Shown: positions 29,927-41,300 of the stretch, piece after piece
Numbering within the stretch: the stretch's first letter is position 1
Layout of the letters: each line of letters starts with the position of its first letter
Source: Thermasporomyces composti
Lineage (GTDB): Bacteria > Actinomycetota > Actinomycetes > Propionibacteriales > Actinopolymorphaceae
Reading direction: 5' to 3'
Assembly (NCBI RefSeq): GCF_003386795.1
Contig: NZ_QTUC01000001.1
Span: 2,170,001-2,234,000, forward strand
Length of the DNA stretch: 64,000 nt
The notes under the pieces: generated by a model
What the model was told of the DNA's origin: nothing
What the model saw: the letters and a program-made list of their open reading frames with translations, nothing else
Database searches by the model: none
Position numbers and translations under genes: made by a program

Positions 29927-30583
29927 ATGGACGTGCCCGCCCCGAGCGAGCGGATCCGGCTGTTGCTGGTCGATGACCACCCGGTGGTCCGGGACGGTCT
30001 GCGTGGCATGCTCGCTGGCGACCCGCGCTTCGAGGTCGTGGGCGAGGCCGCCGATGGGGCGGAGGCGGTCGCGCGAGCCGAGGTGCTCGTGCCGGATGTC
30101 ATCCTGATGGACCTGCGAATGCCGGGGATGGACGGCGTGGCGGCGATCACTCGGTTGGCCGAGCGCGGCGTGCCGTCGCGGGTGCTGGTGCTCACCACCT
30201 ACGACACCGACACGGACGTGGTCGCCGCGGTGGAGGCCGGCGCTACCGGCTACCTCCTCAAGGACGCGCCCCGCGAGGACCTGCTGCGGGCGGTCGTGGC
30301 CACTGCTCGCGGCGAGGCGGTCCTCTCGCCGGCGGTCGCCACGCGGCTGCTCGGGCAAGTCCGTCAGCCAGCGCGGGAGCCGTTGAGCCAACGGGAGCTC
30401 GACGTGCTCGCCCTCATCGCGCAGGGTGCGACGAACCGGGAGGCGGCGGAGTCGCTGTTCATCAGCGAGGCCACCGTCAAGACACACCTGCTCCACATCT
30501 ACGCCAAGCTCGGCGTCAACGACCGTGCCGCGGCGGTCGCGGTGGCGTACGAGCGCGGACTCCTGGGGCCACAGGGACGCTGA
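29927..30583 (+). CDS. Response regulator, NarL/FixJ family
   Basis: A 218-residue regulator with a receiver domain (10-125; phospho-acceptor Asp62 in VILMDLRMPGMDG, Lys in GYLLKDAPRE) and a LuxR-type helix-turn-helix (SQRELDVLALIAQGATNREA, FISEATVKTHLLHIYAKLGV). ATG 29927 has GAGGAGGAG nearby; a GTG 60 bases upstream is possible. It is the partner of the preceding kinase and probably controls the ABC exporter upstream. Confidence 0.94.
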   Translation: MDVPAPSERIRLLLVDDHPVVRDGLRGMLAGDPRFEVVGEAADGAEAVARAEVLVPDVILMDLRMPGMDGVAAITRLAERGVPSRVLVLTTYDTDTDVVAAVEAGATGYLLKDAPREDLLRAVVATARGEAVLSPAVATRLLGQVRQPAREPLSQRELDVLALIAQGATNREAAESLFISEATVKTHLLHIYAKLGVNDRAAAVAVAYERGLLGPQGR

Positions 30584-30676
30584 GCGGTCGGGACCGTGTC
30601 CGGCGGGCTGACCGCTGTCGGGCTGAATCGGGCGAATCGCCACAACGTGGGGTTTGGCCGTGCAAGGATCGGGTGG

Positions 30677-31165
30677 GTGAGCATCTACGACATCCCCCTG
30701 CGCACGCTCGCCGGCGCCCCGTGGTCACTGGCCGAGCTGGCCGGACGGGCGTTGCTCATCGTCAACGTGGCGTCGAAGTGTGGGTTGACCCCGCAGTACG
30801 AGGGACTCCAGCAGCTCCACGAGCGCTACGCCGACCGGGGCTTCTCCGTCGTCGGCTTCCCGTGCAACCAGTTCGGCGGCCAGGAGCCTGGGACGCCCGA
30901 GGAGATCCAGGACTTCTGCTCGACGACGTACGGTGTGACGTTCCCCCTGGGCGAGAAGATCGAGGTCAACGGTCCCGGCCGGCACCCGTTGTACGTCGAG
31001 CTGACCTCGGTCGCCGACGACGACGGGGAGGCCGGCGACGTCGAGTGGAACTTCGAGAAGTTCCTGGTTGCGCCGTCGGGCGCGGTGGTGCGGCGGTTCC
31101 GGCCGGGGACCGAGCCCACCGATCCGGAGTTGGTCGCCGCGATCGAGGCCCAGCTGCCGGGCTGA
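30677..31165 (+). CDS. Glutathione peroxidase family thiol peroxidase
   Basis: A 162-residue cytoplasmic peroxidase. The peroxidatic Cys35 is in NVASKCGLTPQY, the catalytic Gln is in FPCNQFGGQEPG (the Cys there is a likely resolving residue), and the Trp is in WNFEKFLV. Bacterial members usually use thioredoxin rather than glutathione. GTG 30677 is preceded by AAGGAT and seven bases, a leaderless-type start. An upstream in-frame start would add a non-conserved extension. Confidence 0.92.
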   Translation: MSIYDIPLRTLAGAPWSLAELAGRALLIVNVASKCGLTPQYEGLQQLHERYADRGFSVVGFPCNQFGGQEPGTPEEIQDFCSTTYGVTFPLGEKIEVNGPGRHPLYVELTSVADDDGEAGDVEWNFEKFLVAPSGAVVRRFRPGTEPTDPELVAAIEAQLPG

Positions 31166-31184
31166 CCGCGTCGAGTCCGGCGAG

Positions 31185-31203
31185 TTAGGTTAGCCTTCTC
31201 TTG
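31185..31203 (+). promoter_or_regulatory. Iron-box-like site (DmdR/IdeR family)
   Basis: The 19-mer TTAGGTTAGCCTTCTCTTG matches the actinobacterial iron-box consensus at 13 positions, with the left half TTAGGTTAG exact. It lies 57 bases before the first gene of the iron-uptake operon, where an iron-dependent repressor would block transcription. Confidence 0.6.
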
Positions 31204-31259
31204 GTTGCCGCCCTTGGGGTGGTTGAGCGGGTGGCTGATCTTTCGCCCGGAGGACGCCG

Positions 31260-32318
31260 ATGGCCCGTGCGGTCGGGACACTGGACCGTCAGGGCGACGT
31301 CGTCCCCGCCAGCCGACGAAGCGTGACGGCGCTGCGCGGAGCCGGTCTCCTCGTCGCCCTCGCGGTCCTCGTCCTCGTCGCCCTGCTCAGCGTCGCCCTA
31401 GGGGCCAAGCCGATCCCGCTGTCCGAGGTCGTCGACGTGCTGGTGCACCGCGGCACCTCGAACGAGGCCGTCGTCATCTGGGAGCTCCGTGTGCCGCGGA
31501 CCATCCTCGGCCTCGCGGTCGGCGCCGCCCTCGGATTGGCCGGCGCCCTCATGCAGGCGCTGACCCGTAACCCGCTCGCTGACCCCGGCATCCTCGGGAT
31601 CACCGCGGGCGCGGCGGCGGCGGTGGTGGTCGCCATCGCGTTCCTCGGTGTGACGAGCCTGGTGTCGTACGTCTGGTTCGCCCTCGTCGGGGCGGCGGCC
31701 GCCGCTGTGGTCGTCTACCTGCTCGGGTCGGCGGGGCGTGGCGGCGCGACACCGGTCCGGCTGGCGTTGGCCGGCACCGCGATCAGTGCGGCCCTCATGG
31801 CGTTCATCCAGTCGATCACGCTCTCCCACACCGACGTCTTCGACGAGTACCGGTTCTGGGCGGTCGGGTCGCTCGCCGGACGGGACGAGACGGTTCTCCT
31901 CCAGGTGTGGCCGTTCCTTCTGGTCGGGTGCCTGCTCGCGCTCGGCCTGGGCGGGGCGCTCAACGCCGTTTCCCTCGGCGACGAGACGGGCCGGGCGCTG
32001 GGCGCTCACCTGGGTCGCACCCGTGCGCTCGGAGCGGTGGCGATCACGCTGTTGTGTGGCGCCGCGACCGCCGCCGTCGGTCCGGTGGGTTTCGTCGGCT
32101 TGACGATCCCGCACATCGCGCGCGCCATCTGCGGCCCCGACCAGCGCTGGGTCCTCGCCTACTCGGTGGTGCTGGGCCCCACCCTGCTCGTCGCGGCGGA
32201 CGTCGTCGGCCGCCTCGTGGCGCGGCCGGGAGAGGTGGAGGTCGGCATCGTCACCGCCGTCGTGGGTGCGCCCGTCTTCCTCTCCTTGGTACGCCGACGG
32301 AGGATCGCGCAGCTATGA
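31260..32318 (+). CDS. FecCD-family iron-siderophore ABC permease 1
   Basis: A 352-residue permease with about nine or ten membrane segments. Family motifs: LRVPRTILGLAVGAALGLAG, QALTRNPLADPGILGITAGA, and PVGFVGLTIPHIAR near the end. FecCD proteins form the channel for ferric siderophores or haem. It is the first of three coupled genes (ATGA overlap with the next) and lies behind an iron-box-like site. No periplasmic binding-protein gene is present in the window. Confidence 0.95.
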   Translation: MARAVGTLDRQGDVVPASRRSVTALRGAGLLVALAVLVLVALLSVALGAKPIPLSEVVDVLVHRGTSNEAVVIWELRVPRTILGLAVGAALGLAGALMQALTRNPLADPGILGITAGAAAAVVVAIAFLGVTSLVSYVWFALVGAAAAAVVVYLLGSAGRGGATPVRLALAGTAISAALMAFIQSITLSHTDVFDEYRFWAVGSLAGRDETVLLQVWPFLLVGCLLALGLGGALNAVSLGDETGRALGAHLGRTRALGAVAITLLCGAATAAVGPVGFVGLTIPHIARAICGPDQRWVLAYSVVLGPTLLVAADVVGRLVARPGEVEVGIVTAVVGAPVFLSLVRRRRIAQL

Positions 32319-33382
32319 CGGTGGTCACCGCCCAGCACGCTGATCCTCGCCTGCCGGGCCGCGCGCTCCGCGTGGGCGGGCTGTCGTTCCGGCTTCGAGC
32401 GCGGACCGTGGCGGTCTGCCTTGGCCTGGCGCTCCTCGCTCTCGTCGGCGCCGCGGTGACGCTGTCGACGGGTGACTACCCGATCCCGCTCCCCGACGTG
32501 GTGCGCGCCCTCGTCGGCGACGGCAGCCAGGCGAGCACCTTCATCGTCGTGACCCTGCGGCTTCCGCGACTGCTGACGGCTCTGCTGGTCGGCGCCGCTC
32601 TCGGTCTCGGCGGGGCGGTCTTCCAGAGTCTGACGCGCAACCCGCTGGGAAGCCCGGACATCGTGGGCTTCACGACGGGCGCGGCGTCCGGCGCCCTGGT
32701 CGCCTTGCTCATCGTCAAGGCGGGTCCGGCGGGTGTCGCGAGCGCGGCCGTCGGCGGAGGTCTGGCGACGGCCCTGCTGGTCTACGTGTTGGCCTGGAAG
32801 CGGGGCGTCCAGGGCTACCGGCTCGTGCTGGTCGGCATCGGGGTGAGCGCGCTCCTCACCTCCGTCAACTCCTACCTGCTCACCCGCGCCGACGTGGTGG
32901 ACGCGCAGTACGCCGCGGCGTGGCTCACCGGGAGCTTGAACGGCCGCGGCTGGGAGCACGTGGGCCCGGTCGCGGCGGCGCTCGCCGTCCTCGTACCGGC
33001 GCTCCTGCTGCTCGGCCGACGACTCCGCATGCTGGAGATGGGCGACGACGTGGCGAAGGCGCTCGGGGTCCCGGTCGAGCGGTCGCGACTGGCCCTGATC
33101 GTGCTGGCGGTCGGCGTCACGGCGGTGGCGACCGCCTCGGCGGGGCCGGTCGCCTTCGTAGCCCTGGCGGCACCTCAGCTCGCCCGCCGGCTGACGGGAG
33201 AACCAGGCGTCGGGCTCGTGTCGTCCGCCCTCATGGGCTCGTGCGTCCTGGTGTTCAGCGACCTCGCCGCGCAACGCCTGCTCGCGCCGACACAGCTGCC
33301 CGTCGGCGTCATGACCGGGGCCGTCGGCGGTGTCTACCTGGCTTGGCTGCTCGCGCGGGAATGGAGGTCCGGGCGGTCATGA
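32315..33382 (+). CDS. FecCD-family iron-siderophore ABC permease 2
   Basis: A 355-residue partner of the preceding permease, starting at ATG 32315 within the previous stop. It has the same family motifs (LRLPRLLTALLVGAALGLGG, QSLTRNPLGSPDIVGFTTGA, GPVAFVALAAPQLARR). A longer in-frame extension into the first permease is spurious. The two probably form a heterodimer, as FepD/FepG do. The ATPase gene overlaps its stop by four bases. Confidence 0.95.
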   Translation: MTVVTAQHADPRLPGRALRVGGLSFRLRARTVAVCLGLALLALVGAAVTLSTGDYPIPLPDVVRALVGDGSQASTFIVVTLRLPRLLTALLVGAALGLGGAVFQSLTRNPLGSPDIVGFTTGAASGALVALLIVKAGPAGVASAAVGGGLATALLVYVLAWKRGVQGYRLVLVGIGVSALLTSVNSYLLTRADVVDAQYAAAWLTGSLNGRGWEHVGPVAAALAVLVPALLLLGRRLRMLEMGDDVAKALGVPVERSRLALIVLAVGVTAVATASAGPVAFVALAAPQLARRLTGEPGVGLVSSALMGSCVLVFSDLAAQRLLAPTQLPVGVMTGAVGGVYLAWLLAREWRSGRS

Positions 33383-34221
33383 CGCGTCACGGCGAGACGA
33401 GCCGGCTCTGGGCCGAGCAGCTCACCCTCGGCTACGACGGGCGGATCGTGGCGGACGGGCTCGACGCGGTCATCCCCGACGGCTCGTTCACCGTCATCAT
33501 CGGCCCGAACGCCTGCGGCAAGTCCACCTTGCTCCGCGCCCTCGCGCGCACGCTGCGACCCACCCGTGGGGCGGTGTACCTCGACGGGCAGACGATCTCC
33601 TCCTACTCGACGAAGGAGGTGGCCCGCCGGCTCGGTCTGCTCCCCCAGAGCCCCATCGCGCCTGACGGCATCACGGTGGCCGACCTCGTGGCCCGCGGGC
33701 GGTACCCCCACCAGCGGCTGCTCCGCCAGTGGTCACGGGACGACGAGGCGGCCGTGGCCGAGGCGATGGCGGCGACCGGCGTGGCCGAGCTCGCCGACCG
33801 GTTCGTCGACGAGCTGTCGGGTGGTCAGCGGCAGCGGGTCTGGTTGGCCATGGCGCTCGCCCAGCAGACGTCCCTGCTCCTGCTCGACGAGCCGACGACG
33901 TACCTCGACATCGCTCACCAGATCGAGGTCCTCGACCTCTGCGCGGACCTTCACGAACGTCAGGGCCGCACGCTCGTCGCCGTGCTCCATGACTTGAACC
34001 AGGCCGCACGGTACGCCACCCACCTGGTCGTCATGCGAGACGGCGCCATCGTCGCGTCCGGTCCACCGTCCCAGGTGCTGACGGCCGAGCTCGTGGAGCG
34101 AGTCTTCGACCTGCCCTGCCGGGTGATCGCGGATCCGGAGGCGGGGACACCCTTGGTGGTGCCGGCCAGTCGGCGGGCTCGCGTCGCGACCGAGCCGGCA
34201 GCCGGTCAGGCGGCGTCCTAG
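33379..34221 (+). CDS. Iron-siderophore ABC ATP-binding protein
   Basis: A 280-residue ATPase of the FepC/FecE type. Walker A GPNACGKST (Lys48), signature LSGGQRQRVWLAMALAQ, Walker B LLLLDEPTTYLD and switch His in LHDLNQAARYA are all characteristic of siderophore importers. It starts at ATG 33379, overlapping the second permease, and closes the operon. A 12-base palindrome (CCGGCGCGCCGG, 34232-34243) after its stop may help terminate transcription against the convergent desulfurase-like gene. Confidence 0.95.
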   Translation: MTRHGETSRLWAEQLTLGYDGRIVADGLDAVIPDGSFTVIIGPNACGKSTLLRALARTLRPTRGAVYLDGQTISSYSTKEVARRLGLLPQSPIAPDGITVADLVARGRYPHQRLLRQWSRDDEAAVAEAMAATGVAELADRFVDELSGGQRQRVWLAMALAQQTSLLLLDEPTTYLDIAHQIEVLDLCADLHERQGRTLVAVLHDLNQAARYATHLVVMRDGAIVASGPPSQVLTAELVERVFDLPCRVIADPEAGTPLVVPASRRARVATEPAAGQAAS

Positions 34222-34254
34222 GGCCCGGTCCGCCGGCGCGCCGGTCTCGACCTC

Positions 34255-35649
34255 TCACGCGGTGAGCGGCTCACATGGCGACGTGCCCCGGTCAGCCGCG
34301 CCGGTGGTCGAGACGGCCCAGTCGGGAAGGCCTCGCGGGTCCGGTGTCGGCGCCCATCGACCGTCGACGACGTCGTAGCTCCAGCGAGGTCCGGACGTGA
34401 CGAGCTGTTCCACTGCGGCGGCGAGGCGCTCGACGTCGTCCAGCGTCGTCCCGACGCCGAAGCTCGCGCGGACCGCCCCCTCAGGCGCGCCGAGGCGCGA
34501 CAGGAGGGGATGCGCGCAGAACTTGCCGTCCCGGACGCCGATCCCGTGTTCAGCGGAGAGGTAGGCGGCCACGAGCCCGGGCGCGTACCCGTCCACGGTG
34601 AACGCCACCACCCCGATCGAGGTCGTGCTGTCTCGCCAGATCCGCAGGGTTCGGACACCGGGCAGCCGGTTGAGGCGGTCGGTGAGCGCCGTGCGGAGGG
34701 CCTCCTCGTGCGCCTCCAGCGCGCCCGACGGTAGCTGGGAGAGGGTGCGAGCAGCCTGGGCGAGGGTCGCCGCCCCGAGGACGTTCGGGGTGCCTCCCTC
34801 GTGCCGCTGCGGTGCGGCCGCCCACTCGGTGTGGGTGAGGGTGACCTCGCGGACGGCACCCCCTCCCGGCAGGTATGCCGGGGCCTCGTCGAGCCAGTCC
34901 CTCCGTCCGGCGAGCACGCCGGCTCCGAACGGCGCGTAGAGCTTGTGCCCGGACAGCGCGACGTAGTCCACCCCGGACGACGCCAGGTCGATCCTGCGGT
35001 GGGGGGCGAGCTGCGCAGCGTCGAGGACGACTCGGGCGCCGGCCGCGTGGGCGAGCTCCACGATCTCGGCGAGAGGCAAGACCTCGCCGGTGACGTTCGA
35101 CGCGCCGGTGATGGCGAGGAGGCTGGCCGGTCGCGCCTCCAGCTCCGCGCGCAGACTCACCAGCGTGGCCCGCTGGGTGGTGCCGGCGAGGACGCAGCGG
35201 TGTTGGCCTCGCCGCCACGGAAGCAGGTTGGCGTGGTGCTCGATGTCGAGGAAGGTGACGCGGCCGCCACCAGGGCCGTCGTCGGGGACACACCGTGCCA
35301 ACAGGTTGAGCGCGTCGGTGGTGTTGCGGGTGAAGATCACCACGTCGTCGGGACGCGCACCGAGAAACGCCGCGACGTCGGCCCGGGCACCTTCGTAGAG
35401 CGCGGTGCAGACCTGGGAGGTGTAGCCGGCGCCGCGGTGGACGCTCGCGTAGTACGGCAGCACCTCGCTCAGGTGGTCGGCGACCGACTGCAGGCTCGGA
35501 GCGCTCGCGGCGTAGTCGAGGTTGGCGTACGGGAGGGAGTCGCCGGTGACGAGCGGGACCTCGATGCCGGTGCCGACCACGGGAAGCAGCGGCGCCTGGC
35601 CAGGACACGCGGGGTCAGCGGAGTTCACCTGGACGTCGAGAGCAGTCAC
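34255..35649 (-). CDS. Class V aminotransferase (cysteine-desulfurase-like)
   Basis: A 464-residue PLP enzyme from GTG 35649. The SufS/CsdA-like fold is shown by NLDYAASAPSLQSV, FTRNTTDALNLLA, the IEHHANLLPW loop (His138/139), Asp210 in RVVLDAAQLAPH and the PLP lysine Lys236 in ALSGHKLYAPFGAG. Cys378 in DGKFCAHPL aligns with the persulfide Cys loop of SufS. No suf or isc genes are nearby. A SAM-IV riboswitch precedes it, so it probably serves sulfur amino-acid metabolism rather than Fe-S assembly. A 48-codon in-frame extension upstream is the riboswitch sequence, not protein. Confidence 0.9.
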   Translation of the reverse strand: MTALDVQVNSADPACPGQAPLLPVVGTGIEVPLVTGDSLPYANLDYAASAPSLQSVADHLSEVLPYYASVHRGAGYTSQVCTALYEGARADVAAFLGARPDDVVIFTRNTTDALNLLARCVPDDGPGGGRVTFLDIEHHANLLPWRRGQHRCVLAGTTQRATLVSLRAELEARPASLLAITGASNVTGEVLPLAEIVELAHAAGARVVLDAAQLAPHRRIDLASSGVDYVALSGHKLYAPFGAGVLAGRRDWLDEAPAYLPGGGAVREVTLTHTEWAAAPQRHEGGTPNVLGAATLAQAARTLSQLPSGALEAHEEALRTALTDRLNRLPGVRTLRIWRDSTTSIGVVAFTVDGYAPGLVAAYLSAEHGIGVRDGKFCAHPLLSRLGAPEGAVRASFGVGTTLDDVERLAAAVEQLVTSGPRWSYDVVDGRWAPTPDPRGLPDWAVSTTGAADRGTSPCEPLTA

Positions 35650-35670
35650 ACCACACCTCACGGGGCTCAG

Positions 35671-35693
35671 GGACCCCGAGGGTTCTGGGGTCC
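35671..35693 (-). terminator. Hairpin between riboswitch and coding start
   Basis: GGACCCC and GGGGTCC (plus-strand coordinates 35671-35677 and 35687-35693) form a seven-base stem. An alternative GGGG/CCCC pairing with 35662-35665 could compete. The hairpin lies between the aptamer and the ribosome site, so it may be the expression platform. Confidence 0.45.
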
Positions 35694-35720
35694 GCGCTTG
35701 CGGTGCCACGTGGCACGCCT

Positions 35721-35864
35721 GGTCCTCACCCGGAGCACCCCACCGCGGAGGAGGGTTGCCGGCCAGCGAGCCGGGGCTTTCGGGGCCTCGCACCGACGAC
35801 AGGACACGCGTCGCGAAGGGCGCGGTGGTGTCGACGGTCGAGCCCCGCGCTGGCGCTCATGACC
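35721..35864 (-). promoter_or_regulatory. SAM-IV riboswitch
   Basis: On the minus strand the RNA begins GGTCATGAGCGCCAGCG. It contains the SAM-IV core CGCTGGCCGGCAACCCTCC, then GCGGTGGGGTGCTCCGGG, and ends GGACC. P1 pairs GGTC with GACC. P2 is a perfect seven-base pair, GCCAGCG (35854-35848) with CGCTGGC (35770-35764). Between the P2 strands is a 77-base arm, longer than the usual short hairpin, with its own CGGGGC/GCCCCG stem. It binds S-adenosylmethionine and switches off sulfur-metabolism genes. A possible -10 (TACTGT, 35877-35872) lies eight bases upstream. Confidence 0.85.
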
Positions 35865-35987
35865 GCGAGCCACAGTAACCGACCGGCCGCCGCCATCGCG
35901 GGCGTGTTTCGAATAATGAGAACTTGTCTTACGAAGTGGACACAGGTGGGCTTTCGTACCGCCAGCGCCGGCCAGTCGTCCGGACCG

Positions 35988-38237
35988 CTACGGCCCGTAC
36001 ACGCGCAGGTAGTCGAAGGTCGCGGTGACCCCTTCACCACCCATGGCCACCAAGCCGACCCGGGGCTCGGCATCGGCTGGCAGGTGCCACACCGCACCCC
36101 AGATCCAGTGCTCCCCGTCGCGGCTCGTCGCGGCCCGGAACAGATGCTCGCCGGTCTCCGGATGGATGGTGTGGCGCATCCGCAGCCACAGCGTGTCGGC
36201 GGATGGCCCGAGCTGAATCGCGTTCGGCCACGGGCTGGCAGCCGGCCCGACCCACAAGAACGCCTGCCGGGTCGTCCCGGTGGACGTCGGTGCCACGTGC
36301 AGGGAGTTCACCCGGTCACCCCAGACGAGCAGGCCCGCCCGTTCGTAGCCGCGCGGCCCGGTGCCGAGCGGAAGGTGCACCTTGGTCTCGACCGTGTACG
36401 TGCCCTCCGGCGCGTCGCGCAGCAGCACCGCCGCGTGGTCGTCCGACCTCAGGTCGCCCGCCTGGGTCGGCCACACCAGCGCGCCGCCGACTACCTCGGG
36501 GTTCGACTGTGGGGTGCCGACGATCGTCCACGCCTCGTCGAGCTCGGCGCCTTCGAACTCGTCGCTGAACTCCGGCAGCAACGCTCCCACCGTGGGATCC
36601 GGCACCTTGGCGGTCACCGGCTCGTACAGCGCGGTAACACCCACGTTGTCGGCCTCCGCGCCGCGACCCTGCGCCGCCACGCCGACGGGGGAGGGTTTCC
36701 CGAGCCGTTCCGGCACCTCGACGCTCACCTCGGCCAGCGGGCTGCCTTCCATCGCCGCGCTCACCTCGAACGTCGCCCACGACCCGCGGACCTCTGCGGT
36801 GACCGCGTGCCAGGTGTCGAACCGGAAGCCTGCGTGGAGGCGGTCGCTCGCCGACCTCACGACCTCGCCGTCCACGACGACATCGACGACGAGGGCGCGC
36901 CGCGACGGGTCCAGCCAGGCGACCACGTAGTTTCGGTGATCCTCATAGCCGACGACCAGGCCAGCCCGGCCCATGCCGCGCACCCGCAGGTCCGCCTCGG
37001 CCCGGTAGTCGGCCGCGGTGGTCTCCTCGCTCACCAGCAGCAGTGAGTGGGGTGCGGCCGAACGGCTTCGGACGAAGCCTCCGGCATCCCGCTCGCGGGC
37101 GAGACCCCACGCACCGGTGCCGACTGTCACCCAGCCGTCGAGGTCGCCGTCGTTGAACGTGCTGCCGACGTCCCACGTGCCGACCGGTGCCGGCTGCGGG
37201 GTGTCGGAGGTCCACTGACCGGCGCGCACGGTGGGCCAGCCATCGATCCAGTCCAGCCGGTCCATCACCGTCGGACGGCCACCCCAGTTGTCGAACCGGC
37301 TGTTGGCGTTGCTGAAGAACCAGTCCTGTCCGGAGCGGTCGACGGCGGTCGCGTTGTGGCCGGTGCCGACGAGGCTGCTTCCCGTCGTGGCGTTGACGAG
37401 GGTGCCGCCCGGAGCGTCCGCCGTCAGGGGTACGCCCTCGGCGTCGACGAACGGCCCGAGCGGGGACGTGGCTCGACCGACGAACACGGGGTAGCCGCCG
37501 GTGTCGACCTCGCAGCACCCGTAGCCGGAGTAGAACAGGTAGTAGTAGCCGTCGCGCTTGACCACCCAGGCGGCTTCCCCACGGTTGCCCGCCACCACCT
37601 GTCTCGGCTCACCCACGGCTCGGGTGCCGTCGTCGGAGAGCTGGACGACGTGCATGCCGCCCTCCCGGAAGGAGCCGTAGTACAGGTACTTCGTGCCGTC
37701 GGAGTCGACGAACAGCGCTGGGTCGATCTCCATGACCTCGCTGTCGGGAACGAAGTCGACGACCGGACGGCCGATGTCCCTCCACGGCCCAGCTGGCGTG
37801 GGGGCGGTGGCCAGCCCGATGGCGGCGTCGCCACCACCGGCAAGCGAGTAGTACAGGTAGTAGGTCCCGTCCACGTAGCGGACGTCCGGTGCCCAGTAGC
37901 CCGTACCCGGGAACGGCTTCCACTCAGGGTGGTTGTCCTCGTTGAAGACCGTTCCGACGAACTCCCACGTCACCAGGTCGGCGCTTCGCGCGATCGGCAT
38001 GTAGTACGGCGGTCCGCCGTTCTGCTGGTTCTCGCGGGTCATCACCGTCGTCGTGGCGTAGGCGTACCAGTAGCCGTCCTTCGCGCGGATGATCCCGGGG
38101 TCCGAGAACGCGTCTGCGAAGTTCGACATCAACGGGTTGGTGTAGGTCCGCTGGTCGGCTGCGGTTGACGGCGCCGCGCCTGCCAGGACGAGCACGAGCG
38201 CCGCACACCACACCGACAGCCGTCGCCGGAGCTTCAT
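35988..38237 (-). CDS. Secreted GH43-family glycoside hydrolase
   Basis: A 749-residue secreted enzyme from ATG 38237 (AAGGGGATC upstream). A signal peptide (1-27, ending APSTAA) is followed by a five-bladed GH43 domain with catalytic Asp46 (FSDPGI), Asp172 (IDPALF) and Glu221 (GEAAWVV). Two beta-sandwich modules follow: a concanavalin-like region around 345-530 and a final region around 545-749 (FSDEFEGAELDEAWTIVG, RAGLLVWGD). GH43 members remove arabinose or xylose from arabinan, xylan or arabinoxylan. It is the last gene of the GH67 operon, 113 bases downstream of GH67. Confidence 0.93.
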   Translation of the reverse strand: MKLRRRLSVWCAALVLVLAGAAPSTAADQRTYTNPLMSNFADAFSDPGIIRAKDGYWYAYATTTVMTRENQQNGGPPYYMPIARSADLVTWEFVGTVFNEDNHPEWKPFPGTGYWAPDVRYVDGTYYLYYSLAGGGDAAIGLATAPTPAGPWRDIGRPVVDFVPDSEVMEIDPALFVDSDGTKYLYYGSFREGGMHVVQLSDDGTRAVGEPRQVVAGNRGEAAWVVKRDGYYYLFYSGYGCCEVDTGGYPVFVGRATSPLGPFVDAEGVPLTADAPGGTLVNATTGSSLVGTGHNATAVDRSGQDWFFSNANSRFDNWGGRPTVMDRLDWIDGWPTVRAGQWTSDTPQPAPVGTWDVGSTFNDGDLDGWVTVGTGAWGLARERDAGGFVRSRSAAPHSLLLVSEETTAADYRAEADLRVRGMGRAGLVVGYEDHRNYVVAWLDPSRRALVVDVVVDGEVVRSASDRLHAGFRFDTWHAVTAEVRGSWATFEVSAAMEGSPLAEVSVEVPERLGKPSPVGVAAQGRGAEADNVGVTALYEPVTAKVPDPTVGALLPEFSDEFEGAELDEAWTIVGTPQSNPEVVGGALVWPTQAGDLRSDDHAAVLLRDAPEGTYTVETKVHLPLGTGPRGYERAGLLVWGDRVNSLHVAPTSTGTTRQAFLWVGPAASPWPNAIQLGPSADTLWLRMRHTIHPETGEHLFRAATSRDGEHWIWGAVWHLPADAEPRVGLVAMGGEGVTATFDYLRVYGP

Positions 38238-38350
38238 CAGCTGATCCCCTTTCTCGGGCCACCGCATCGCCGTGTCCGTTGTCGGCGAGCTGAGGTCTCA
38301 GCCCACCGCGGCCTCGACATCCGCTTGCGTCGACGAGTCATCGCTGTCGA

Positions 38351-41300
38351 TCAGGCTCGCCGCATCACCAGGGCGACCAGGCGCCACCACCGGTCCCGCA
38401 GGGCCCCGACGAGTCGCAGATCCGCCAGTCGTCCGGCCTCACCGCCGTCCAGCGTGAACGAGAACCACCGGAACTCTCCCTGCGGAATGATCTCGTCCCC
38501 GGAGCTGCCCAGCAGCGTGTCACCCTCGTAGACGCTGGTCGTGCCGGAGGGCGAGTAGGCGTCACCGGTGAGGACGTCGACCCGGTGCGCGCCGGCGGGC
38601 ACCGCGAGGCGCAGGACGTAGTCCTGGTCGCGCCCCAGCACGAAGTCGCGGCGCAGGACGTCCAGCCGCGCGCGGTCCCGGAACGTCGGCGGCTCCGTCA
38701 CCCAGCCGAAGCCACGGTCGGCGTCCCACAACTCCTCCGGCGACAGGCGCCGGTATCCCTCCAGGACCGGGCTTGACGGACTGCCGGCGTCGAGAACCAG
38801 CACGGCGTCGTCGGGTGCCGGCACCACGATCGTGTCAACCGTCCATTGCTCGCCGTCGGGATCCTCCGCGAGGCGGACAGCGACGGTGCCCATGGTGGGC
38901 TCTGTCGGAGGCGTCACCCGCACCGTCAGCTCCACCTCCGCGCCACCCGGAACGCGGCCGCTGGCGGGCTCGGCCGTCCAACCCTCAGGGACGTCGACGG
39001 CGACGGTGACGTCGACCGGCTCGTCGGTCATCCCCGCCACGCTCACCCTGACGTCGTTCGGTCGGCCGGCCCACAGCACGCCGCTGGAGCGGACCTCGGT
39101 GAGGACGGCGGGCGGGATGGGCGCGTCGGGATTGACGATGACAAGGCCGCATAGCCGCCAGAAGCGGCCCGGGACGCTGGAGAACTCCAGGTCGACCTCC
39201 CGGCCCTCCGAGCCGCCATCGAGCTCGAAACGAAGCCACTCGAACGTGCCCCCACGGATGCGGCCGCCCTCCGCGACGCGCTGACCATTCACGTCGATGA
39301 ACGTCGGCCAGACGTCGGGGCCACCGTCGCCGACCAGGACAGCCGTCTCATGGATCCCCGGTGGGATCGCGAGCCGCAGCGTGCAGGGTGCGGTGTCGCC
39401 ACAGAAGTCCCGTCGTAGCGCGTCCCAGGCGTCACCGCGGTCGCGGGACTGCGGCGTGCGGCCGATCCACCCGTACCCGCGCGCCGGATCCCACATGGTC
39501 TCCGGCGTCAGGCGCTGGTAGCCGGGCACCAGTGGACTCGATCCCGAGCCCGCGTCAAGGGCGATGTGACAGCGACGGCCGGCGGGCGTGACGATCGTGG
39601 GGTGACCGGCGGTGCCCAGCACCTCGACGGCTGGGGTCATCGCGACCGCGAGCTGGAGCTGGTCGGCGACCAGGGGAGGTTGGACCGGCAACGTCATCTC
39701 TGCGTCCGCCCGGCTGGCGACCTCGGCCTCGGCGGTGCCGGCCGACCATCTCTCGTCGGGCACGTGTAGCCGCGCCGTCACTCGATGGTCTTGCCCAGTC
39801 GCGTTGGTGACCTTCAGCGGGAGGCGGTTCGGCCATCCGCCGAGCAGCAACGGCGTCCCTCTGCCGAACTCGTACTGCAGCCACTCACGCCGTTCGTCGA
39901 GGATTCTGGAGTAGTCGAAGAAGAACGAGACGATGGTGTCCCGCCAGCGCCGTGCGTGGAACGCGTGCTCGTCGAACGTCGCGAGGACGTCGGCGTGTCG
40001 GCGCGCGTCGACGTGCGGGGCGAGCTCACGCCACGTCTCGCGCATGCGGAGAACACGCTCGGCGCCGTCGAAGTGGCTGTCGTAGATGTGCTGGATGACC
40101 GTCGACCCCGAGTGGAGACGGTGGGTGTACGGCACCCAGTGCAGGAACAGCAACAGCTCGTCGGGCACCGTCTCCAGCGACTCGTACCGTTCGGCCCAGA
40201 ACGGCGCGTACAGCCCGGTGAAGCCGCTCCCGGTGGCCACCGTCCGGTCGAAGCCCGTGCCCTCGGCGGTGGTGTGGTGGGACTGGTTGAGCGTCGACCG
40301 AGGGTCCGGGTCGAAGTGGGAGCCGGTCGGGAACGTGAGGTAGCCCATCCCGAGAGGCGAGGTGTAGTCCTCGTACGTCCGCCAGGACTCGAGCATGATG
40401 TCGGTCAGCGGTCGCACGAACGCCTCGTCCGGGGTGAACGTCAGCTGAATCCACTCGCGGACGATCTCCTCGGCCGACAAGCGTGGGTTCCACGCCAGCC
40501 GACCGAAGCCATGCGTGTTCGCTGCGCCGAGCAGGTAACCGGTCCAGTCGCGGTCGTCACCGAGGTTCGCCACGCCGACGATGCCCACGTGGGACTGACC
40601 GTAGGCGGTACCGGTGACGATGCTCTCGACTGTCGTCCCGTCCCCTTGCGCCTTGGTGTCGAAGTCGAGGATCTCCTTCCACTGCGGCACCAGGTAGCAC
40701 AGGTGGACGTTGTGACCGGTGTACTCCTGGGTGATCTGAAGCTCGATCGCCTGGTTGGTCCGCGGCATCGCGCCGAACAGGGGGTGCACCGGCTCCCGCA
40801 CCTGGAAGTCGAGAGGACCGTTCTTGGTCTGGACGACGACGTTCTCGGCGAACTCGCCGTCCAGGGGCGCGAAGGTCCGGTACTGGTACTCGGCCCAGTC
40901 GGAGAAGCCTTCGTGGACGAAGCTCCGCCAGAAGATGAGTCCGCCATACGGGCGGATCCGCTCGGCGAGCATGTTCGCGCCGTCCGCGTGGGTCCTCCCG
41001 TAGTCCAGGGGGCCGGGCTGCCCCTCAGAGTTGGCCTTGACCAGGAACCCGCCGAAGTCGGGGATGAGCTCGTAGATCTCGGCGATCTTCTCCTGCCACC
41101 AGAGCTGGACGCGCGGGTCGAACGGGTCCGCTGTGGTGATCGGGGACGGATCGTTCGCCGTCAGGACCATCGGGCTCGCGTAGTTCGCCGACAGGTAGAG
41201 GCGGATCCCGTAGCAGCGGAGCAGGTCAGCGAGCGCGGCAAGCCCACCCAGCCGGTCGGAGGACAGGAAGTGCGCGTTCGCGTTGACATTGTTGACGACC

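Follow-up and report, generated by a model that had tools for sequence, protein, structure and literature searches.

A predicted helical arm in the P2 turn of a SAM-IV riboswitch ahead of a SufS-like gene in Thermasporomyces composti

The locus described here raises the question of how a SAM-IV riboswitch may hold a long stretch of extra sequence within its P2 helix, and what such a leader would do for the gene that follows it. The window, i.e., the whole stretch of DNA analysed, comprises 64,000 nucleotides of the Thermasporomyces composti contig NZ_QTUC01000001.1, and the features of the leader and its gene all lie on its minus strand. An earlier note, made from the sequence of the window without database searches, had described a SAM-IV riboswitch spanning 35864-35721 with an arm of 77 bases between the strands of P2, followed by a class V aminotransferase gene.

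The identification as SAM-IV was borne out by Infernal, which returned a match to the Rfam family RF00634 on the minus strand at 35801-35689 with 63.7 bits and an E value of 6e-9, the gathering score being 38. The comparison of the whole leader with Rfam yielded no second family, only SAM-IV and one chance-level match. The score was reached even with what is probably a wrong 5' strand, as Infernal placed this strand inside the arm, at 35801, where several positions of P1 and P2 do not pair. The strand at 35864-35849, GGTCATGAGCGCCAGC, is the sole exact match in the window to the pattern GGTCAYGAGYGCCAGC; if up to three mismatches are allowed, the pattern occurs at 10 sites (one exact, one with two and eight with three mismatches), compared with a mean of 6.3 in shuffled sequences. 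It agrees with the consensus at every position and recurs in each of the seven distinct armed leaders discussed below, whereas the letters near 35801 are not conserved there. If the Rfam boundaries were correct, the window would contain a degenerate standard SAM-IV starting at 35801, without an arm and preceded by 60 nt of unrelated leader. Infernal's best alignment, which begins there, and the free fold of the core, in which the arm is present and P1 and P2a are both absent, would be in line with this, but the non-pairs and the conservation of the 35864 strand make it extremely improbable. A TAnnnT-like box just upstream of 35864, recognised by eye, also speaks against it, although the scan for promoter consensus found no signal, and neither did the scan for tandem repeats. 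The 5' boundary at 35864 given in the earlier note therefore appears to fit better than that of Rfam. The span proposed there runs exactly from the 5' to the 3' strand of P1 and corresponds to the aptamer core of 144 nt (35864-35721), as delimited by the Rfam match, the pattern search and a constrained fold. However, the riboswitch extends further in the 3' direction, to about 35689, to include P5 and the PK-2 strand, and at the level of sequence the 176 nt at 35864-35689 are confirmed as a SAM-IV riboswitch. Since the usual covariance model puts the 5' strand in the wrong place here, copies with long arms may be described incompletely.

The complementary strands of P1, P2a, P2b, P3 and P5 are all present, those of P3 and P5 being located by the Rfam alignment. 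P1 is formed by the conserved letters GGUC (35864-35861), in whose place Rfam aligned the 35801 strand, and GACC (35724-35721), and P2a by GCCAGCG (35854-35848) and CGCUGGC (35768-35762). Both helices are fully complementary, in agreement with the core motifs, the P1 and the perfect P2 described before, and P2a is also supported by conservation. The P2b hairpin AGCCCCGGCU (35778-35769, Rfam alignment) bears the PK-1 loop CCCGG, the expected partner of which is CCGGG at 35733-35729. P5 forms a hairpin at 35718-35701 in the Rfam alignment, which also places the 3' strand of PK-2, GCGCGG, at 35697-35692, with the P3 loop CCGCG (35748-35744) as its expected partner. The two pseudoknots, named after the structural account (PMC6890682), are complementary in letters (CCCGG/CCGGG and CCGCG/CGCGG) and are predicted. 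Where the published SAM-IV structure has a turn of four nucleotides between P2a and P2b, the window has an arm of about 70 nt instead. Because the turn belongs to that structure and Rfam does not require it of family members, the leader is to be regarded as a variant and not as a non-member. We infer that its RNA would bind SAM.

The arm noticed earlier is thus present, but its length has to be corrected: 79 nt separate the 7-bp strands of P2a, made up of an extra arm of 69 nt (35847-35779) and the normal 10-nt P2b/PK-1 hairpin. According to folding and comparison, the arm is predicted to be a single long interrupted hairpin in the P2a/P2b turn, which would turn P2 into a three-way junction. 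The seven arms in the dataset are 63-71 nt long with pairwise identities of 56-92%, and each of them folds as one rod with z values of -2.8 to -4.8 in comparison with 300 dinucleotide shuffles. When P1 and P2a are forced, the core fold lies 0-3.3 kcal/mol from the free fold in 7/7 leaders in a pseudoknot-free model, the cost for the window being 1.7 kcal/mol. To assess compensation, the 5' halves of the arms were paired with the 3' halves of other species and the energies of native and hybrid combinations were compared. For the window, L090 and L091, whose arms are the most diverged, native pairing beats every hybrid in both rows and columns, and the native halves of the window reach -41.9 compared with -18.6 to -31.7 for the hybrids in its row. 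The other four arms are closely related, and hybrids among them often equal or outdo the native halves; overall, the native combination is best in 4/7 rows and 3/7 columns. The basal pairs of the arm, read by eye, differ on both sides between species, e.g., from A-U to G-C. Comparison of the leaders thereby establishes the aptamer, the arm and its predicted pairing. Separately, it was observed that CTTCGC occurs in all three most diverged long arms and is absent from the four close relatives; in the arm of L091 it is located in the 3' half and not at the apex.

Of 117 genomes from the order, seven contain the long-arm pattern, namely every genome from two genera of one family, that of the window and a neighbouring one. 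The arm was found neither in the 109 genomes of other families in the order nor in the sole genome of the family's third genus, using a pattern that required exact flanking letters and that a diverged arm could escape. The same orthologous gene follows the arm-bearing leader in all seven carriers, and their SAM-IV copies score 62.0-67.7 bits with the Rfam model. In the third genus, the orthologue (73% identity) is located behind a standard SAM-IV with 113.7 bits. This genome branches ahead of the armed group in the protein tree with a support of 84/75, which is not strong, and this branching order makes a single gain of the arm the simplest reading. Three other SAM-IV copies in these genomes (L001, L084 and L113) have a normal turn.

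The arm could also be a neutral insertion that is tolerated without a function of its own, as might be expected from the drift of its sequence down to 56% identity and from the gene of the third genus, which has a standard armless switch. Insertions in the P2a/P2b turn are also found in other lineages, and folding might persist merely to spare the core from disturbance. However, pairing is maintained despite the drift, and no loss of the arm was observed among the seven carriers. We give the neutral reading a substantial chance, somewhat short of even. We lean towards the arm as a peripheral module that would tune folding or stability; an insertion that is simply tolerated is almost as likely.

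Shorter arms are found at the same site in other lineages. In another genus, probably Streptomyces, 9 of 121 genomes contain a SAM-IV with a hairpin of 29-38 nt at the P2a/P2b site. A GST-like gene follows in all nine, with a weak GST similarity below the Pfam cut-offs, and no class V gene was found within 1.5 kb of any of them. The native halves of these short arms pair better on average (-19.7 compared with -15.0 for hybrids) but are best in only 4/9 rows and 4/9 columns. In the desulfurase leader of Micrococcales bacterium KH10 (L065), the P2 spacing exceeds the standard by 13 nt, with a 5-bp hairpin in the P2a/P2b turn and 70.2 bits in Rfam. Among 17 SAM-IV stretches taken from the matches listed, the four with the longest Rfam matches comprise two with a longer P5 (G529 and G501) and two with a P2 arm (G460 and G486). 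Judging from these predicted folds, P2-turn helices exist in at least three lineages, in which they were likely gained separately. The turn could therefore be regarded as an evolutionary docking site for repeated helix insertion and the long arm as a second regulatory domain responding to a ligand, a protein, a distal part of the RNA or temperature, in which case the gene would answer to SAM plus a second signal. We consider this combined reading improbable, and a second-sensor role of the arm appears less likely than tuning or a harmless insertion. A description of a P2-armed SAM-IV was not found in open-licence publications, and the original SAM-IV consensus may already show a variable P2 (Weinberg 2008).

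The leader is tied to the class V gene well beyond the armed group. In a class-wide sample of 197 evenly drawn genomes, 68 contained an orthologue, defined as a match at E <= 1e-90, and in 64 of these a SAM-IV with the orientation of the gene precedes its extrapolated start by 10-417 nt. The remaining four (G500, G405, G037 and G479) gave no SAM-IV match at all under strict filters. The leader of the window scores 63.7 bits in this sample and the other 63 at least 81.9 bits, which, compared with the 62.0-67.7 bits of the armed copies, makes a long arm in them unlikely. A similar picture emerges from the nearest gene loci (the best 80 of 337), 76 of which have a SAM-IV core upstream, 27 of them confirmed by Rfam and 49 resting on the core letters, while four (L064, L071, L073 and L082) have neither core letters nor an Rfam match. 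The P2 spacing is standard in 72 of the 76 (69 with exact letters and 3 with diverged P1 letters), long in three, all from Actinopolymorpha, and extended by 13 nt in L065. In a further family of the class-wide sample, probably Streptomycetaceae, all 15 genomes with the gene have a SAM-IV upstream; none of these exceeds 119 nt by Rfam, which leaves no room for the arm. Another genome of the dataset has a back-to-back pair of SAM-IV matches, which are on opposite strands with about 100 nt between them (C16:1956-2073, minus; 2175-2291, plus); one of the two precedes the class V gene. SAM-IV before such a gene is already known from two Streptomyces species, as reported for S. lividans SLIV_26975, annotated as cysteine desulfurase/class V gene, and for the class V gene CRV15_21540 of S. 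clavuligerus (PMC8269248).

Downstream of the aptamer, two competing hairpins can be predicted. The antisequestor, supported by leader comparison and folding, is formed by GGACCCC (35693-35687), whose first GG lies within the end of the PK-2 strand, and GGGGUCC (35677-35671). The alternative sequestor, predicted by folding, is formed by CCUCGGGG (35681-35674), which overlaps the GGGGUCC strand, and CCCC-GU-GAGG (35665-35656), and would hide the putative ribosome site GAGG (35659-35656). The isolated antisequestor and sequestor hairpins are close in energy with -14.1 and -12.5, respectively. For the comparison, 86 leaders were tried, four of which lack the core, and the six bases after CAAGCGC were considered in the remaining 82, which include many close relatives and are not independent. 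A perfect downstream partner is present in 42 of these 82 leaders and in 65 if G-U pairs are allowed; the other 17 have no 6-pair antisequestor even with G-U. Compared with the 42 leaders that have a perfect partner, the mean was 2.4 for mononucleotide-shuffled tails (maximum 7) and 19.7 after tails had been exchanged between species (maximum 27), from which it follows that the pairing co-varies. The comparison establishes a co-varying antisequestor as a predicted element and suggests that the leader exerts translational OFF control. Evidence against this model comes from the 61-nt tail of the window, in which the sequestor form (-21.6) is already more stable than the antisequestor form (-19.4) and both are surpassed by a third fold at -24.1.

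The explanation that we consider probable is a SAM-IV riboswitch that would repress translation of the SufS-like enzyme at high SAM via PK-2, the antisequestor and the sequestor, with a helical P2 arm replacing the turn. Plentiful S-adenosylmethionine would stabilise P1 and the double pseudoknot, and PK-2 would then capture the GG that otherwise starts the antisequestor. The downstream strand released in this way would pair over the ribosome-binding site and block translation. When SAM is scarce, the antisequestor would form and the gene would be on; the direction of switching, with SAM turning the gene off, is part of this proposed model. In the lineage of the window, the helical arm of about 70 nt would take the place of the short P2a/P2b turn, making P2 a three-way junction with unchanged core letters. 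Control by transcription attenuation instead of translation is unlikely in our view, although a premature transcript has been described for the S. clavuligerus gene with SAM-IV (PMC8269248), which suggests transcriptional attenuation in that species. In the window, no terminator-like site was found between 34100 and 36100 by a scan that depends on a T run and that a terminator without one would escape, and the ribosome site would be covered by the hairpin further downstream; both points speak against attenuation.

The gene following the leader (35649-34255) encodes a class V PLP-dependent enzyme of 464 aa with a GTG start, which was set by orthologue comparison and is preceded by the putative ribosome site six bases upstream. 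As the earlier note had stated, it contains the SufS-type lysine and cysteine motifs, SGHK and RDGKFCAHP, and its membership in PF00266 is supported by 290 bits with a cut-off of 21.5. SGHK is present in 80/80 and RDGKFCAHP in 78/80 of the nearest loci (the best 80 of 337), although this conservation is in part built in, as DGKFCAHP had itself served as a search peptide. With the SufS model TIGR01979, the protein reaches 286.9 bits, below the NCBIfam cut-off of 475.1, and a separate SufS is encoded elsewhere in the genome with 591 bits (cut-off 475). The best-matching solved chains (9ddd and 8odq) are annotated as cysteine desulfurases. No suf or isc genes were recognised by eye beside the class V gene in the list of open reading frames from 30000 to 41000, and the ABC-transporter genes past its 3' end are in the opposite orientation. 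As for neighbour genes shared between loci, the 25 largest clusters listed are confined to groups of related loci, and several are spurious reading frames. A cysteine dioxygenase-family gene is located just downstream in three Actinopolymorpha loci and in the genome of the third genus, whereas the other 77 of the 80 loci and the genome of the window gave no such match. A second SAM-IV in the same genome (C1:2494773-2494884, plus strand) has 91.9 bits and a standard turn and precedes an ABC transporter permease (scored with PF00528), a binding protein and an ATPase. We take this transporter set to be of the sulfonate/taurine type from the look of the sequences. Control by SAM, the separate SufS and the second SAM-IV before a transporter set fit a role in sulfur-amino-acid metabolism. 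A role in cysteine or methionine metabolism rather than in Fe-S cluster assembly, as proposed before, is thus plausible, and our best guess for the putative activity is that of a cysteine or cysteine-sulfinate desulfurase. We do not favour a replacement of MetC by the class V enzyme, given that two Cys_Met_Meta_PP enzymes with strong scores (493 and 319 bits) are encoded in the genome.

If the predicted structure is correct, there is room in the SAM-IV fold for a third helix within P2, at the position of the kink-turn in SAM-I. Armed and armless leaders would provide natural constructs with which the part played by the turn in folding and ligand binding could be tested. The co-varying antisequestor, together with the pairing over the ribosome site, offers a testable mechanism for many leaders in actinobacteria, and the downstream gene encodes a widespread sulfur-type enzyme.

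Compared with known systems, the leader shares P1, P2a, P2b, P3, P5, PK-1, PK-2 and the conserved core letters with SAM-IV as defined by RF00634 and as described in the cryo-EM study (PMC6890682). It differs in the P2a/P2b connection, as P2a and P2b are four nucleotides apart in that structure, where SAM-I has a kink-turn, whereas the window has its arm there. The Streptomyces genes SLIV_26975 and CRV15_21540 are preceded by the same riboswitch class and annotated as the same kind of gene, a likeness that is based on annotation; unlike for the window, an arm is not mentioned in the published passages considered. The enzyme belongs to the same sequence family as SufS, with which it shares the lysine and cysteine motifs, and is 38.6% identical to the SufS of its own genome, but it lies below the TIGR01979 cut-off and has no suf neighbour recognised by eye. 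The short-armed SAM-IV copies, probably from Streptomyces, resemble the window in having a hairpin at the P2a/P2b site; their outer P2a pair is U-A, as seen in L099, whereas that of the window type is G-C.
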